34,519 nt of DNA, from assembly GCA_020430245.1 (NCBI GenBank), contig JAGQKG010000013.1, forward strand, positions 1-34,519, written 5' to 3'. Source of the stretch: Nitrospira sp. Lineage in GTDB: Bacteria > Nitrospirota > Nitrospiria > Nitrospirales > UBA8639. The translations under genes and the position numbers were made by a program. The notes under the pieces are model-generated. The model was not told the origin of the DNA. It did no database searches and worked only from the letters and a program-made list of their open reading frames with translations. Positions 1-33,381 of the stretch are shown here, piece by piece (position 1 is the first letter of the stretch; each line of letters begins with the position of its first letter).

Positions 1-2039
1 ATGAGCCCTTTGGCAACAATCAACTTGTCAAATTCCGCTAAGGTGTCGGCATCCGTATTCGGATCGATCCCTTCTGTGACAAGGATGGCTTTCGCTCCTG
101 CCACTACGGCCCGGTAGGCTTTATTGATGGCAAACGCGTATTGGTGTTTTTCAGCCAACAAGCGTGCTTGATACAGTTCCTGTTCTGCTTCAAGAATCCG
201 ATTGTCGATCATCTCCAATGCGCCGCCGGCGCATTCGCCGGGTCCGAGGTCCTCGACCGAAAATTCCTCATCGCTTTCCCAGTCAACATAGAATTGTGGA
301 TCCTCTTGATACGTGGGAAGAATCGTGTAGGGGATCAGTTCATCTTTTAGATGGATTTTCCCGGTGCGGTCAATGAAGGCCAACAGGGACTCCTCATTGT
401 GTTTGTCCCGGCGATAGAGATCGAGCAGATGCTGAACGGCAGCAGGGACGTTTTTCGCAGGGACCTTCACAATGAGTTGGGCAATTTTGGCTGTGCCATT
501 GACCCGTCCCCCAAGGTGCAGTTCATACACCGGTGCGACATGGTCTCCAATGCGTTTGCCGACTCCATGTAAACCGATCGTGGCGATATGATGTTGAGCG
601 CAGGAATTGTGGCAGCCACTGATTTTTACGTTCACCCCTTCCAGGTCTCCTGCGATTTTTCCGGCAGGGAACACCTCTGCCAGCGCTCGTGCCAGTCCTT
701 TAGAGGAAGTGATTCCCAACCCACAGGTGTCCGTCCCAGGGCAGGAGACGATATCTGCTACGCCCTCAGCTCCAGGGTCGCCCAACCCATGAGCGGCTAA
801 TTCGTCATAAAAGTGCCGGAGGTGGATATCGGGAACCCATCGAACCAAGATGTTCTGATTGATGGTTGTACGAAGGTTTCCGTTGGCATACCGTTCGGTG
901 ATGTCCGCCAACGCAAACATTTGTTCCGACGTGATATCACCCGAGGGGAGTCTCACCGCGGCTGTTTTATATCCTGACTGGCGTTGGGTGATCACATTTG
1001 TTGCGCACCAATGATCGAACGCTTCTTGCGACGAAGCATCTCCATTTAGTAATGAGCTATGGGATTGGCTGTTCCCATTGCCCTTGGCGGTGGTGCCGTT
1101 CCCGGATTTTGTCGGCATCACTAATGGAGGATCATCAGGATACGGGGTTGTTTCCAATCCAAGTTTGGTGGCGCCGGATTGCAACATGGCATCGTAGGTC
1201 TCTTTCCATCGATGAGAAAATTCCTCAAATCCTAATTTGTCAATGACAAATTTCATCCGGGCCTTGCTGCGATTTTTTCGATTGCCTAAATTATCAAACA
1301 CCTTGAGCATGGCTTCGATGGCGGGGATCAATTCTTCCATGGGAACAAATTCATGAAGCACTTTGGCAAGGCGCGGAGTAGACCCCAACCCGCCACCAAC
1401 GACCATTTTGAATCCCGGAGCCCCTTCGAAATTGCGAGCAGCCAGAAGTCCGACATCGTGGATAGGGGTTAGGGCGCAGTCGTGTTTGCAGCCGGAAAAG
1501 GCAATTTTAAACTTGCGGGGGAGACTTTGGTTGAGTGGATTCCGTAATAAATGATAAGCCACGGTTTTCGCGTAGGGGGTCACGTCAAACACTTCGCCGG
1601 GGCACACCCCTGCCAAGGCACAGGCTGTGACGTTTCGCACGGTATTGGCACAGGCTTCCCGGGTGGTGAGTGTAACTTCTGCTAGTTTTCGCATGATCGT
1701 GCCAACGTGTCGGAGGGGAACAAAGTGCAGTTGAATATCCTGTCGCGTCGTGACATGTCCCACGCCGGTGGCAAAAGTATCCGCAATGTCTGCGACTTGG
1801 CGGAGTTGATTGGCGGTAAGACCTCCAAAGGGAATCTTGATCCGGACCATTTGTACATCCGCTTGGCGCTGACCATAAATGCCGTATTGAAGTCGAAACG
1901 GTTTGAACACGTCGGACGGCGTGTCACCTGATTGCAGGCGATTGACCTCATCTTCGAATGTTTCTATTTCTTCAAGAATCTCCTGGGGTATCGGTACCGT
2001 GTGAATAGGAGGGTGGCTGGTGACCGGTGAGGTGCTCAT
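1..2039 (-). CDS. Ferredoxin-type nitrite/sulfite reductase with HEPN-like C-terminal extension (partial, runs off left edge)
   Basis: Reading the minus strand from ATG at 2039 gives 679 codons without a stop before the window edge, so the C-terminus is missing. A GGAG ribosome site lies 7 bases upstream of the ATG. The protein has the duplicated half-domains of siroheme/[4Fe-4S] nitrite and sulfite reductases. The cluster ligands are C433 and C439 (CPGTDTC) and C476 and C480 (SGCHNSC, then AQHHIATIGLHG). The first half carries a related motif around C140 (ACALAGVCPGE, then SGCKHDCA). The family reduces sulfite to sulfide or nitrite to ammonia in the cytoplasm with six electrons from ferredoxin; the substrate cannot be told from sequence here. 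From about residue 605 a helical segment resembling a HEPN domain is appended (AINKAYRAVVAGAKAIL). A co-directional Rrf2 regulator lies 102 bases upstream. The family call is firm; the substrate and the HEPN label are inference. Confidence 0.9.
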   Translation of the reverse strand, partial: MSTSPVTSHPPIHTVPIPQEILEEIETFEDEVNRLQSGDTPSDVFKPFRLQYGIYGQRQADVQMVRIKIPFGGLTANQLRQVADIADTFATGVGHVTTRQDIQLHFVPLRHVGTIMRKLAEVTLTTREACANTVRNVTACALAGVCPGEVFDVTPYAKTVAYHLLRNPLNQSLPRKFKIAFSGCKHDCALTPIHDVGLLAARNFEGAPGFKMVVGGGLGSTPRLAKVLHEFVPMEELIPAIEAMLKVFDNLGNRKNRSKARMKFVIDKLGFEEFSHRWKETYDAMLQSGATKLGLETTPYPDDPPLVMPTKSGNGTTAKGNGNSQSHSSLLNGDASSQEAFDHWCATNVITQRQSGYKTAAVRLPSGDITSEQMFALADITERYANGNLRTTINQNILVRWVPDIHLRHFYDELAAHGLGDPGAEGVADIVSCPGTDTCGLGITSSKGLARALAEVFPAGKIAGDLEGVNVKISGCHNSCAQHHIATIGLHGVGKRIGDHVAPVYELHLGGRVNGTAKIAQLIVKVPAKNVPAAVQHLLDLYRRDKHNEESLLAFIDRTGKIHLKDELIPYTILPTYQEDPQFYVDWESDEEFSVEDLGPGECAGGALEMIDNRILEAEQELYQARLLAEKHQYAFAINKAYRAVVAGAKAILVTEGIDPNTDADTLAEFDKLIVAKGL

Positions 2040-28972: not shown

Positions 28973-29863
28973 ATGAGTCTCGATTATGTAAAATTCACGC
29001 CCGGTTTCGGAAAATTTATGCCAAAAGAGTATAGAGATATGGTCGAACATGGTCCATTTGGAAAAAAGACCTCGGTTTCGCAAGTGGGAACGTTTAAAGA
29101 GATCCTAGAGGAACATCCTATGTGTGCGGGGTGCGCGATGACGTTGTTTATCCGCTTGGCAATGATTGCATTTCCTAATCCAGAAGATACGATTACAGTT
29201 GGGACGGCTGGATGCGGGCGACTAGCTATTTCTCAGGCAGCTATTCCTTTTGTCTATGGAAATTACGGCGATCAAAATGGAGTGGCCAGTGGGTTGTCTC
29301 GTGGGCTTCGCTTAAGATTTGGAGATCGTCCCAAAGATGTTGTCGTAATGGCGGGTGATGGGGGAATGGCAGACATTGGTTTTGCTCAAACTTTGCATTC
29401 CTGGTTTCGAAAAGAAAAGTTTACGACTATCATGTTGGATAACGAAGTGTATGGAAATACCGGTGGTCAAGAAAGTGGAATGACCAACAAGGGCCAAGTT
29501 TTGAAGATGGCCCCTCTAGGGAAAAAATTTGAAAAGATGGATATGTTAGGAATGGCCAAGGTTGCAGGGTGTGCGTATGTGGCGACAGTAGTTCCCAATA
29601 ACCCAAGAAGAGTAGAAAGTGTCATTAAAAAAGCGGTCTTGATTGCACGGGAAGTGGGTCCAACGTATATCCAAGCCTATACCTCCTGTAATATTGAATA
29701 TGCAATTCCAACAGATAAAGTTATGGAAGATGCAAAAGATGTCGAGAATGATCGTTATGCATTTTCGGAATATCTTACAGACGAAGCCAAGCAGTATTTA
29801 GGGGAATTGTATGGGTACAAAGAATATCTCCCGAAGCCTGCGGCTGCAGTAACTAAAGGGTAA
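28973..29863 (+). CDS. forB: 2-oxoacid:ferredoxin oxidoreductase, beta subunit
   Basis: This subunit binds thiamine diphosphate and a [4Fe-4S] cluster and carries out the 2-oxoacid chemistry (pyruvate or 2-oxoglutarate synthase). In 296 residues the cluster cysteines are C51, C54 (HPMCAGCA), C81 (AGCGR) and C239 (TSCN). The thiamine-pyrophosphate motif is GDGGMADIG (D129) with N157 in NEVYGNTGGQ. A GGAGGAGG site lies upstream of ATG 28973. It opens a five-gene operon in the order beta, gamma, delta, epsilon, alpha, like the five-subunit For/Por complexes of Hydrogenobacter used in the reductive TCA cycle. The symbol follows that usage; substrate (pyruvate versus 2-oxoglutarate) cannot be told here. 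Confidence 0.93.
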   Translation: MSLDYVKFTPGFGKFMPKEYRDMVEHGPFGKKTSVSQVGTFKEILEEHPMCAGCAMTLFIRLAMIAFPNPEDTITVGTAGCGRLAISQAAIPFVYGNYGDQNGVASGLSRGLRLRFGDRPKDVVVMAGDGGMADIGFAQTLHSWFRKEKFTTIMLDNEVYGNTGGQESGMTNKGQVLKMAPLGKKFEKMDMLGMAKVAGCAYVATVVPNNPRRVESVIKKAVLIAREVGPTYIQAYTSCNIEYAIPTDKVMEDAKDVENDRYAFSEYLTDEAKQYLGELYGYKEYLPKPAAAVTKG

Positions 29864-29946
29864 TGATCTACCCTAAGATTTTGTATACTTGGTTTGGATG
29901 CCCTTACTACCCTTACCTTGACAAGGTATGAAAATGGAGGTTGAAA

Positions 29947-30669
29947 ATGGCTATTCGTTATAACATTCGTATGGCAGGAGTTGGTGGTCAGGGCGTGGTG
30001 ACTGCATCCCACATCTTTAGCACAGCGGTCATTAATGCTGGAGGGGAGAGCACAATCGTTCCGTTTTATGGGTCTGAAAAGCGAATGGCTCCTGTGGAAA
30101 GTTATGTGCGTGTTTCGAATGAGCCAATATATGAAATTGGAGAAATTACCTTTCCCCACATTCTCATGGTCTTTCATCCACAGTGCATCACTCATGGAAA
30201 GAGTTACACGAATCCTTTTTATTATGGGTTAAAAAAGGAGGGCGTCGTTCTCATCAATAGCAATACACCGATGAATCTTGATCCGGATCAAGCTGCGGAA
30301 TTGAAAGACCTCAATGCGAAAATATATTACATTCCAGCTACCCAGATGTCGTTAGATGTGGCGGGAATTGATTTGGCCACCAATATGGCGATGGTTGGGG
30401 CGATCGGGGCCATTACGGGGCTTTCAGACTTAGAGGCTACGGGTACAGCGGTGAAAGATCGATTTCTCGGAAAAGGATTTGTGGTGTCAGGTGGAACTGC
30501 TGCATTGGACAGTGTGGTGGAAAGAAAGTTTAAAAAGAAAGCAGAGCTCATTGAGAAAAATTTGGCCGTAGTGAAAGCGGCGTGGGATTATGCCATCGAG
30601 CATGGATGGTCTGCAGGAGGTTCCTCAATGGCCGACCAAACAGCTGCTGCAGCGAAGGCTTCGGTCTAA
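29947..30669 (+). CDS. forG: 2-oxoacid:ferredoxin oxidoreductase, gamma subunit
   Basis: The 240-residue product shows the gamma-subunit signature near the N-terminus: AGVGGQGVVTASHIFSTAVI (GxGGQG at about 11-16), then PFYGSEKRMAPVESYVRVS. This subunit supports coenzyme and substrate binding in the complex. ATG 29947 has GGAGG six bases upstream; a TTG two codons earlier is inferior. It lies 83 bases after the beta gene in the same operon. The C-terminus is rich in Ala and Ser (SSMADQTAAAAKASV). Confidence 0.92.
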   Translation: MAIRYNIRMAGVGGQGVVTASHIFSTAVINAGGESTIVPFYGSEKRMAPVESYVRVSNEPIYEIGEITFPHILMVFHPQCITHGKSYTNPFYYGLKKEGVVLINSNTPMNLDPDQAAELKDLNAKIYYIPATQMSLDVAGIDLATNMAMVGAIGAITGLSDLEATGTAVKDRFLGKGFVVSGGTAALDSVVERKFKKKAELIEKNLAVVKAAWDYAIEHGWSAGGSSMADQTAAAAKASV

Positions 30670-30696
30670 AAACGGGGGAATTGAAAGGGGAGAGCG

Positions 30697-31020
30697 ATGT
30701 ATCTTGTTGCGAATATAGATATAGATATTTGTGCTGCAACCAGCTGTAAGTTGTGTACCCAATATTGTCCAGAAGCCAATACGATTCAGTATGATACGGA
30801 GGCGGGAAAGGACAGGGGGTTAAAGTACGGATCGGCTTATGTAGCCGTAGATCGTTGTAAGGGTTGCGCACAATGCGTTTGGGTGTGTGACAACATGGCC
30901 AAGCATCATGCTATTAAAATGGAAATGATCGATCAAATCGGAGATGCGGCACTCACTGAAAATATTTCCTACTTGGAAAAAAATACCAAAGCGGTCCTTG
31001 CTAGTCCGCTTAAGGGATAA
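30697..31020 (+). CDS. forD: 2-oxoacid:ferredoxin oxidoreductase, ferredoxin-like delta subunit
   Basis: The 107-residue protein is predicted to hold two [4Fe-4S] clusters and pass electrons to or from ferredoxin. The second set is the classic CxxCxxCxxxC (C54, C57, C60, C64). The first set is C12, C17, C20 and C24 followed by proline, so its first spacing is four residues instead of two. It follows the gamma gene by 27 bases with a strong AAAGGGGAG site. The gene position and size match the delta subunit of five-subunit complexes. Confidence 0.9.
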   Translation: MYLVANIDIDICAATSCKLCTQYCPEANTIQYDTEAGKDRGLKYGSAYVAVDRCKGCAQCVWVCDNMAKHHAIKMEMIDQIGDAALTENISYLEKNTKAVLASPLKG

Positions 31021-31076
31021 TCTGACAAAACCTTTTCATTCTCCAGTTATTTCATACTCATCAATCGGAGTCCAAC

Positions 31077-31838
31077 GTGGAATTAACGAAAGAGTTAGAA
31101 GAAGCAATCGTGGCTCCAGGGCCACAAGGTTTCCATCCTCCATCAGCTGCAGAGCTAGGTGTACTTCCCCCAGACTCGGGAATGGGCCTCAAATTCGGGC
31201 ATATTGTTGAGGAAGAACGAGCTATGGAAGCTATGGCGCATTCGATGTTCACAAGGAAAAATGCCACCATCTTCCCTGGGCCGATGGTTTTATGGGCTTG
31301 GAACGACCATGCTGCTGATAAGGCGAAGGCGGTTTTGGAGTTAGCGGCCCAAATTCCTGATGTATTAATAATTCCAATGCCAGACTACAGACCAAAGTAT
31401 CCAAAGGTTGAGCCAGAAGAAGTCATCAACCCTAATCATCCCAATCTCACTATTTGGGGGAATAAGATTGAAGCCTGTATTTTTATTGGTGTGCACTGTC
31501 ACTATGCCAATTTGACCCTCAAGATGATTCGAGCCGGAACCAACTGCTGGACTTCTGCTATTTGCGCGGAACAAGGACATGAGGATGCCATGTTCACCGT
31601 TCGAGATTCTGATGCGGCAAAGATCCGAAGGGCCGCAGCGGTCTTTAAGAGGGTGCGGGAAGAAATGGGGATTAAATTGCCAGAAGATAGCAATAATGTT
31701 CGTTTTACTGGATTACAATCAAGAGTCCATGGCGGCAAAACTCACACCAATCCCCTGGATTTCAGTATAGAAAGTCCTGTTGATGGAAACGCGGCAGCGT
31801 TTGGCCATAAAGCTGAACATATGCAAAAAGAAGCATGA
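31077..31838 (+). CDS. forE: 2-oxoacid:ferredoxin oxidoreductase, epsilon-type accessory subunit (CODH-beta-like family)
   Basis: This 253-residue protein has no iron-sulfur or thiamine motif. It starts at GTG 31077 with a CGGAG site six bases upstream. Sequence segments such as FGHIVEEERAMEAMAHSMF and TIFPGPMVLWAWNDHA, together with its place in the operon, match the fifth subunit of Hydrogenobacter-type For/Por enzymes, a family databases often label carbon monoxide dehydrogenase beta-subunit-like. Its biochemical role in the complex is not established. The cysteines are spread out (ACIFIGVHCHYA, NCWTSAICAEQG). The operon role is confident; the function is not. Confidence 0.85.
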   Translation: MELTKELEEAIVAPGPQGFHPPSAAELGVLPPDSGMGLKFGHIVEEERAMEAMAHSMFTRKNATIFPGPMVLWAWNDHAADKAKAVLELAAQIPDVLIIPMPDYRPKYPKVEPEEVINPNHPNLTIWGNKIEACIFIGVHCHYANLTLKMIRAGTNCWTSAICAEQGHEDAMFTVRDSDAAKIRRAAAVFKRVREEMGIKLPEDSNNVRFTGLQSRVHGGKTHTNPLDFSIESPVDGNAAAFGHKAEHMQKEA

Positions 31839-31881
31839 GCAAGTTTTTGAATTTTCACTTCAGTCATAAGGGGGTAAAACC

Positions 31882-33234
31882 ATGAGCGAAGCTCTTGAAT
31901 CGGAAGTTAAAACAAATCCCCAAGGTGATCCAATTACCAGTGCGCCAGAAGCACCATCCGTTGATAGCTCAAAGGGAAGAAAAGACCCTCATGGAGATGC
32001 CAAACGCCAGAGGGAAGTTTCTCCGGAATATATGTTTTTTGAGGCTCCTCGTGAGCGGGAGTTTATTACCGGGAGTGAATGTGCGAAAGAGGCGGTGAGG
32101 CGATCAAATGTGGATATGTCTGTGGCCTATCCCATTACCCCACAAAGCGAAACATTGCAATTAATTGGGGTCTTGTATGGGGAAGGGTATGTGAAGGAAT
32201 TCTATCGGGGTGAAGAAGAATATGGCGTCATGTCGGCAATTGCCGGGGCTTCGCGCGCAGGTGTTCGAGCTTTTACGGCCACAGCTGGTCCTGGGACATT
32301 ACGAGGTCTTGAGCCCATCGTCTCGTGGGCTGGTCACCGTCTCCCTGCCGTTTGCATGTTTACATGCAGAGTTGTCAATGCTCCGCTGGCAATCCAACCC
32401 GATAATATTGAAATTGCCTATCTTTTGAACAGCGGAATGCTGGTATTTCATGCTGAAAATCAACAGGACCTGTTCGATTTTATCATGAAAGGCTTTATTA
32501 TCAGTGAAAAAAATGATGTGACGCTCCCCGTAGGTGTTTGCTGTGATGGTTTTTTTGTAACTCATGCTCGGGGATATTGTGCGATGCCGGATCGTGGTCT
32601 TAAGCTCCCAGGTCGAGATCCTTACCGAGGGTCGGTACCGGTCTTGGATGCGGAGAACCCTCCAGCTCGATTGTCTCGTGATGCTCCCGTTCAAAAATCC
32701 AATTTTATGGCCTACAACATTCACGCGGTGTGGCAGCAGGAAGTATGGGCTGGCGTGGAACGTTCACGGAAATATATTAATCAATATATGGATGGGTTGT
32801 TGGAAGCTCAGGATGTGGAAGACGCAGATGTCCTCCTAATTGCATCGGGGAGTGCAGCGGCTCAATCCCGCGAAGCGGTCCGCCAATGTAAGGAAAAGGG
32901 GATTAAGGCAGGATTGATTAAGATTCGCTCCTTGCGACCTTTCCCAACAAATGAACTAAGAGAGCTGTGTGGGAAAGCCAAGCTTATTGTCATTCCCGAG
33001 TTTAATTATGTCGGATGGTTAGCTAAGGATGTGGCTACGGCAATTTATGGGTTTTCCAACGCAAAAATTGTGGCTGGTCCACATGTCTACGGTGGAATGT
33101 CTATGCCAGTTGAGATGATTACGGATGAAGTGGAATGTGGGTTAACCGGTAAGAAGTCGAACACGGTTCCAGAGTCTCATATTATGGGAACAGTTGATCC
33201 AGCAGCGGTGGCTCAATTTATGAAGAGCATTTAA
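31882..33234 (+). CDS. forA: 2-oxoacid:ferredoxin oxidoreductase, alpha subunit
   Basis: The 450-residue alpha subunit has the conserved YPITPQSETLQ motif (83-93) of the pyrimidine-binding domain. Further conserved segments are EFYRGEEEYGVMSAIAGASRAG and the C-terminal transketolase-like domain (DVLLIASGSAAAQSREAV, then SLRPFPTNEL). Residues 1 to about 57 are a low-complexity, Pro/Ser/Lys/Glu-rich extension before the catalytic fold. A GGGGG ribosome site precedes ATG 31882. It is the last gene of the operon and is followed 29 bases later by a strong terminator. Confidence 0.94.
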   Translation: MSEALESEVKTNPQGDPITSAPEAPSVDSSKGRKDPHGDAKRQREVSPEYMFFEAPREREFITGSECAKEAVRRSNVDMSVAYPITPQSETLQLIGVLYGEGYVKEFYRGEEEYGVMSAIAGASRAGVRAFTATAGPGTLRGLEPIVSWAGHRLPAVCMFTCRVVNAPLAIQPDNIEIAYLLNSGMLVFHAENQQDLFDFIMKGFIISEKNDVTLPVGVCCDGFFVTHARGYCAMPDRGLKLPGRDPYRGSVPVLDAENPPARLSRDAPVQKSNFMAYNIHAVWQQEVWAGVERSRKYINQYMDGLLEAQDVEDADVLLIASGSAAAQSREAVRQCKEKGIKAGLIKIRSLRPFPTNELRELCGKAKLIVIPEFNYVGWLAKDVATAIYGFSNAKIVAGPHVYGGMSMPVEMITDEVECGLTGKKSNTVPESHIMGTVDPAAVAQFMKSI

Positions 33235-33263
33235 GTTTAGTAAATTCCCAAGATGGGAAGACC

Positions 33264-33303
33264 AAAAGCCCGTCCCAAGAACAATTGGGACGGGCTTTTC
33301 TTT
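33264..33303 (+). terminator. Strong rho-independent terminator of the oxidoreductase operon
   Basis: AAAAGCCCGTCCCAA pairs perfectly with TTGGGACGGGCTTTT around a six-base loop (GAACAA), a 15-base stem, followed by CTTTG. It ends the operon 29 bases after the alpha stop. Confidence 0.9.
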
Positions 33304-33381
33304 GCCATCAGGAATAATTGAGGATTGAGAAATGAGAAGGCTGTCGATTATCACAAGCACCTGATAAAGTAAAAGGTCTAA

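Follow-up and report, generated by a model that had tools for sequence, protein, structure and literature searches.

A five-subunit 2-oxoglutarate:ferredoxin oxidoreductase operon in Nitrospira and the genomic contexts of its carbon monoxide dehydrogenase-like subunit

The stretch of Nitrospira sp. DNA analysed here (contig JAGQKG010000013.1, 34,519 nucleotides, hereafter the window) carries at positions 28973-33234 of the forward strand five intact open reading frames (ORFs) spaced by 27-77 bases, which encode in order the beta, gamma and ferredoxin-like subunits of a 2-oxoacid:ferredoxin oxidoreductase (OFOR), a subunit resembling a component of carbon monoxide dehydrogenase (CODH) and the alpha subunit (B-G-Fd-D-A). 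We consider it very probable that this operon encodes a five-subunit 2-oxoglutarate:ferredoxin oxidoreductase (OGOR) of the Hydrogenobacter/Nitrospira type, belonging to a Nitrospirota chemolithoautotroph, in which the CODH-like protein, delta, is the fifth subunit. The identity follows from homology and phylogeny, and the predicted chemistry is carried over from the Aquificota enzymes. As an enzyme it is ordinary, one more five-subunit member of the reductive tricarboxylic acid (TCA) cycle of Nitrospirota; what is new is the genomic context of delta, which in some other genomes of the phylum lies beside the inorganic-carbon pump DabAB or near a Hyf-like arm.

The original prediction, drawn from this sequence, of a five-subunit operon with a CODH-beta-like member agrees with both the ORFs and their Pfam domains. 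The beta subunit (ForB, 28973-29863; this and the following genes are all on the + strand) has a TPP_enzyme_C domain (66 bits), a GDG motif for thiamine diphosphate (TPP) binding at residue 128 and four cysteines, C51, C54, C81 and C239, that are likely the ligands of one [4Fe-4S] cluster. Gamma (ForG, 29941-30669) contains a POR domain (124 bits), and its start is more likely ATG 29947, which lies six bases 3' of a GGAGG, than TTG 29941. Eight cysteines in the ferredoxin-like subunit (30697-31020) form the patterns C12 C17 C20 C24 and C54 C57 C60 C64, two likely [4Fe-4S] sites. Delta (31077-31838), similar to the CODH beta and acetyl-CoA synthase (ACS) epsilon subunits, matches CO_dh (PF02552) with 134 bits against a cut-off of 21, and alpha (ForA, 31882-33234) matches POR_N (181 bits) and PFOR_II (66 bits), has YPITP at residue 83 and is extended N-terminally compared to its paralogue. 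All five subunits of the Hydrogenobacter-type enzyme, as had been proposed, are thus encoded in one operon, and the cofactor residues are present too: beta has those for TPP and a [4Fe-4S] cluster, and the ferredoxin-like subunit has two cluster sites.

Whether the substrate is pyruvate or 2-oxoglutarate was addressed through the Aquificota clusters. These, some of them cut by contig ends, are of two kinds, one ordered Fd-D-A-B-G with a delta of 189-190 aa and one ordered D-A-B-G-Fd with a delta of 235-240 aa. We assigned them respectively to pyruvate:ferredoxin oxidoreductase (PFOR or POR) and OGOR because order and delta mass match the Aquifex enzymes identified by activity (PMC10052474): delta masses are 21.3-21.4 kDa in three Fd-D-A-B-G clusters (Aquifex PFOR, 21.3) and 26.5-27.0 kDa in four D-A-B-G-Fd clusters (Aquifex OGOR, 27.6). 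The alpha mass is not decisive, since the tables of that paper give two different values for OGOR alpha, 42.7 and 44.7 kDa. In trees of alpha, beta and gamma (49, 46 and 45 rows), which contained five-subunit enzymes of Nitrospirota and Aquificota and no non-carboxylating enzyme, the window subunits group with the Aquificota OGOR kind with support of 100/100, 100/100 and 97/92, and those of a paralogous cluster on contig C443 of the same genome group with the PFOR kind. A second pair of alpha and beta trees (41 rows each) gave the same split with a support of 100 in the Shimodaira-Hasegawa-like approximate likelihood ratio test (SH-aLRT). Identities of the window proteins to an Aquificota OGOR (L102) and POR (L089) are 62 and 48% for alpha, 61 and 45% for beta and 58 and 49% for gamma. 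The alpha and beta phylogeny, named earlier as the means of choosing between the two substrates, hence gives the 2-oxoglutarate enzyme, and the prediction that the window encodes an OGOR rather than a pyruvate enzyme is firm. The converse assignment, with the pyruvate enzyme in the window and the 2-oxoglutarate enzyme on C443, would suit the D-A-B-G-Fd order of the C443 cluster, which is that of Aquifex OGOR; we regard it as very improbable, as all three trees and the identities place the two clusters the other way round and order is a poor guide, complete Nitrospirota POR-type clusters also being D-A-B-G-Fd.

Several observations weigh against this account of the operon. The pyruvate or 2-oxoglutarate identity of the clusters in the Aquificota metagenome-assembled genomes relies on order and delta mass, and the tree program warned of long branches meeting in both builds of the beta tree, the first of which was read except for its middle part. 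The genome is 88% complete, 4.3% contaminated and split into 512 contigs. The delta tree departs from those of alpha, beta and gamma, with both Aquificota deltas clustering together; a delta tree following the other subunits was, however, not rejected by the approximately unbiased test (p-AU 0.083). Given this tree and the same p-AU, delta may have been recruited separately to POR in Aquificota. Finally, the OGOR of Nitrospina gracilis is reported in PMC3578206 to lack delta. A Nitrospinae genome in our set (G016) matched neither POR_N nor PF02552 and is uninformative as a delta-less control.

Two statements of the original prediction had to be amended. It called the CODH-like subunit epsilon, and in Hydrogenobacter and Aquifex usage this protein is delta and the ferredoxin-like subunit is epsilon (PMC10052474), the latter corresponding to the delta of four-subunit enzymes. 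It also held that the gene order matches that of Hydrogenobacter-type enzymes, whereas B-G-Fd-D-A differs from D-A-B-G-Fd of Aquifex OGOR and from Fd-D-A-B-G of its PFOR. The subunit composition matches the Aquificota enzymes and the linear order is a circular permutation of theirs. B-G-Fd-D-A is common to OGOR clusters of the window's family, its order and two further families (L139, L140, L142, L145, L146, L148, L161, L170, L193, L197), and the class has four other families whose OGOR clusters are D-A-B-G-Fd (L150, L152, L155, L157); the window order reflects a local rearrangement rather than the order of Hydrogenobacter.

A profile search of the 4.05 Mb assembly (512 contigs) found POR_N above cut-off twice and PF02552 twice, the window and C443 each having one gene for either domain; the genome contains two five-subunit clusters, and delta was found only in these two operons. 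The C443 cluster (D-A-B-G-Fd) is predicted to be the pyruvate enzyme; its alpha contains TPSFFTGSEVIK, given in PMC8115632 as a target peptide for the POR alpha of Nitrospira marina, and the window alpha does not. On contig C16, two adjacent genes are predicted to encode the ATP-citrate lyase subunits, the first bearing citrate-binding (ATP-citrate lyase type) and ATP-grasp domains and the second CoA-ligase and citrate-synthase domains. Reductive TCA capacity, which had been read from the operon alone, is well supported by this pair together with the POR and OGOR clusters, and the genome does contain other enzymes of the cycle.

The invariant residues of delta were mapped on 86 distinct sequences comprising deltas of both enzymes from two phyla as well as copies located apart from such operons (>250 bits and <300 aa, which leaves out degenerate deltas). 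H121, H140, C141, H142, C157, C163, D103, Y104 and R105 are invariant, in agreement with a 48-sequence alignment, and C134 and H168 are kept in 92% and 85%; degenerate deltas at three loci described below (L206, L207, L208) are devoid of the His/Cys motif. The earlier statement that this subunit has no cofactor motif is incomplete, since it has six invariant His and Cys residues, a set matching no known motif. DabA2 is described in PMC13144422 as having a Cys2His zinc site with an Asp-Arg dyad, to which CO2 and bicarbonate bind; the resemblance of the delta D-x-R and His/Cys residues to that site is only suggestive. When the two enzymes of the same genome are compared, delta is also the most similar subunit in 17 of 18 genomes, with a mean identity of 57.6% against 46.0-50.3% for the other subunits; in the exception, G204, alpha is more alike and two subunits are missing. 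This likeness would fit a role independent of the 2-oxoacid, gene conversion being an alternative cause.

Archaeal CODH/ACS epsilon (CdhB; structure 1ytl) belongs to the same Pfam family and shares the His of GHED (YHPN in 1ytl). Counterparts of delta H140-C141-H142, C163 and DYR are missing from 1ytl in an alignment that is weak, being made through an Aquificota fusion domain (E 0.033). That fusion domain alone reached 1ytl, weakly, in a sequence search of solved structures, which returned no relative of delta itself, and a delta profile matched no epsilon chain in the PDB up to E 10. AlphaFold2 run on the single window sequence gave a mean predicted local distance difference test score (pLDDT) of 35.5. 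The fusions are proteins of 727 and 723 aa in Aquificota (L106, 3224-5407, -; L107, 3-2174, +) that combine a lipoate-ligase domain, a DUF116-like stretch and a CO_dh domain; CO_dh domains in frames of 723-759 aa were seen in 9 of the 19 genomes searched.

PF02552 was detected in 138 of 295 genomes of the phylum (E <= 0.001; 134 above cut-off), and no delta relative was found in viral contigs or in plasmids. Among the matches listed, all three genomes of the window's own genus have two copies, and other genera of the family have two (13 of 16) or three (3 of 16). From genomes with extra or atypical copies we chose 43, 18 of them from a family, f20, and 25 others, and placed 144 delta genes relative to POR_N and DabA. 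The f20 sample comprises 18 of the 20 genomes listed, the omitted G097 and G105 having one match each (E 3e-4 and 7e-4), and the counts leave out six PF02552 rows of <=26.5 bits, POR_N rows of <=61 bits and two second DabA fragments. Outside f20, 48 of the 87 deltas among the matches listed lie within 4.5 kb of an alpha gene on the same strand and two (both in G291) near DabA. For f20 the corresponding numbers are 3 of 57 near alpha and 24 of 57 within 9 kb of DabA on the same strand, the latter in 13 of 18 genomes, when about 0.6 would be expected by chance assuming random placement. As f20 genomes are close relatives, these 13 cases represent few events. The family is by inference Leptospirillum-like, on the grounds of its small genomes and of a tandem arrangement of POR and OGOR like that reported in PMC5418355. 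Tandem OGOR-type and POR-type operons followed by one delta gene were observed at L199 (2730-11010) and L200 (2750-11034, +).

In an 81-row delta tree, one of the DabAB-linked deltas of G038 clusters with the delta that lies behind the POR operon in G029, G101 and G117 (SH-aLRT 98), and the other with solitary f20 deltas (93). Since the tandem OGOR-POR locus of G038 (L218) has no recognisable delta, this placement indicates that delta sits in that genome at the carbon pump without the other subunits. The possibility that the DabAB-linked protein is an unrelated paralogue was rejected on the same grouping of a G038 copy with OFOR-linked deltas. In the window's genome DabA genes are on C493, C178 and C130, contigs other than those of the delta genes. 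Deltas beside or flanking DabB-DabA were seen at L183 (7288-15785, +), L184 (2899-11198, +) and L204 (4246-15342, +), DabB and DabA being separated by a protein of 444-470 aa at L183 and L204.

Deltas also occur near homologues of HyfB, HyfC and HyfF (NuoL, NuoH, NuoM) in at least ten genomes (G291, G245, G038, G269, G138, G150, G251, G146, G116 and G166), in all of which except G138 HyfE was found too; NuoCD- and NuoB-like genes were confirmed at the arms of G245, G291 and G038. There are two deltas per locus except in G166, which has one, and G251, in which the second is a 107-aa ORF; several genes separate the deltas from the arm in G038 and G150. Of three further loci with delta pairs, L163 and L165 end at contig ends and L205 has no Hyf-like arm. 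In seven genomes, all outside f20, the two deltas near the arm were both included in the tree and fell on different sides of it, one being OGOR-type and the other POR-type; these are G245, G269, G116, G146 and, less surely given long branches, G138, G150 and G291. Both Hyf-linked deltas of G038 are POR-type. Four genomes (G245, G269, G146 and G116) have an OFOR-like protein of 477-501 aa between their deltas; in G166 such a protein precedes the single delta, and it is also present at L163 and L165. Three such proteins were scanned and matched PFOR_II and not POR_N. In G138 the protein unites full gamma and alpha parts, matches POR_N (184 bits) and adjoins a TPP-binding beta, so that at this locus (L189, 1160-12406, -) two delta genes flank a complete KorAB-type oxidoreductase, next to a Hyf-like arm.

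In f20, an OGOR stands behind the Hyf arm at two of the three loci examined: L206 (2563-14000, -; G111) and L207 (3147-13999, -; G070), not L208. On one strand, both carry HyfB-C-E-F-G-I, a degenerate delta and an alpha-beta-gamma-ferredoxin operon; at L206 Pfam matches confirmed HyfB, HyfC and the NuoCD- and NuoB-like genes, and trees place alpha and beta of all three loci with the OGOR type, the kind found in the window. This arrangement suggests that the oxidoreductase may be coupled to a proton-pumping arm.

By homology, alpha and beta bind TPP and one [4Fe-4S] cluster and the ferredoxin-like subunit relays two low-potential electrons; the enzyme is predicted to form 2-oxoglutarate by carboxylating succinyl-CoA as a step of the reductive TCA cycle, and can probably run in reverse. 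As a hypothesis, delta would play a part independent of the 2-oxoacid: seated on the catalytic core, it may aid the formation of a stable holoenzyme, and its His/Cys face may link the enzyme to something common to POR and OGOR, most likely inorganic carbon or electron supply. That the role of the CODH-like subunit is open, as had been stated, agrees with what PMC10052474 and PMC3578206 say of it. Three more specific functions deserve attention, of which an adaptor or CO2 handler fits the genome contexts best, a shield has the best structural precedent and an assembly factor has the sole published expression result.

It is possible, although we lean against it, that delta covers an Fe-S cluster of the oxidoreductase, much as the single Rossmann fold of methanogen CODH epsilon buries the D-cluster, and makes it oxygen-tolerant. 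The two proteins share a Pfam family, CODH epsilon binds alpha and buries the D-cluster (PMC11474084), and in aerobic autotrophs it is to the five-subunit enzymes that O2 tolerance is ascribed (PMC8115632, PMC3578206). Such shielding leaves deltas beside DabAB or paired near a Hyf-like arm without explanation, and most of the invariant His/Cys set has no counterpart in 1ytl according to the weak alignment above. A rather doubtful candidate is an assembly factor that remains in the complex without contributing to catalysis. Delta is reported, in PMC3578206 citing other work, to be necessary for heterologous expression in E. coli, and the same source allows that the POR delta may substitute in the delta-less Nitrospina OGOR; on the other side, mass spectrometry identified delta in the bands that stained for activity of the Aquifex enzymes (PMC10052474), and its His/Cys set is invariant across five groups of sequences.

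We tentatively offer, as an unlikely case, an adaptor that docks 2-oxoacid oxidoreductases to DabAB as a source of CO2 or bicarbonate and to a Hyf-like proton-driven arm as a source of low-potential electrons, the D-x-R and His/Cys residues maybe forming a metal or CO2/bicarbonate site. The proposal is made because delta adjoins DabAB in G038 without other subunits, delta pairs are found near Hyf-like arms and an OGOR lies behind HyfBCEFGI. Against it, the DabAB-linked pairs of f20 are both POR-type, and the delta behind the Hyf arm in L206 and L207 is degenerate (19 bits, below the Pfam cut-off) and without the His/Cys set. That delta belongs to a CO-oxidizing CODH, as the Pfam name and a CODH beside the hyf operon of Ca. 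Nitrospira nitrosa (PMC5596200) might imply, is a reading we rejected as extremely improbable, the catalytic Ni-CODH model TIGR01702 (E <= 0.001) being unmatched in 18 of 18 genomes searched, the window's included, and matched in 5 of 14 control genomes (above cut-off in 2). Because of this result, and by inference from other genomes, the gene in Ca. Nitrospira nitrosa is probably delta-like.

Returning to the enzyme itself, the OGORs of Aquifex aeolicus and Hydrogenobacter thermophilus have the same five subunits and cofactor residues as that of the window, and its alpha, beta and gamma are 57-62% identical to those of two Aquificota OGOR clusters. The differences lie in alpha (450 aa against 388-389), the ferredoxin-like subunit (107 aa against 74-78) and the order. 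Compared with N. defluvii and N. marina, nothing substantial differs, two five-subunit clusters per genome being what is reported for N. marina (PMC8115632); its third, four-subunit POR and the KorAB of Ca. Nitronereus were not seen here, among two POR_N matches above cut-off in an incomplete genome. Five-subunit enzymes of Nitrospira and relatives are already in print (PMC8115632, PMC10579370, PMC3578206). For the links of delta to DabAB and to Hyf we found no statement in the open-access literature, most subscription papers lying outside that search. The invariant His/Cys residues and these neighbourhoods make the open role of the CODH-like subunit directly testable, and should the adaptor proposal be true, aerobic bacteria using the reductive TCA cycle would physically couple inorganic-carbon uptake and reverse electron transport to their carboxylases.

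Among minor features of the window, a predicted intrinsic terminator hairpin at 33265-33298 (+) with a 14 bp stem lies 3' of alpha at the operon end, in a region (33255-33305) folding at -30.2 kcal/mol (z -6.4); it is absent from the consensus terminator scan, probably because its T run is inside the stem. A promoter scan found 6 against 8.8 expected, Rfam gave zero matches in the window at gathering scores, and no tRNA was found there. NCBIfam provided no equivalog, the best model for beta (3-methyl-2-oxobutanoate) scoring 104 bits against a cut-off of 405. The operon is preceded by genes for CutA1 and an M23 peptidase and followed by SurE. At the other end of the window, positions 3-2039 (-) encode a nitrite/sulfite reductase with NIR_SIR domains and a weak HEPN match near its C-terminus.

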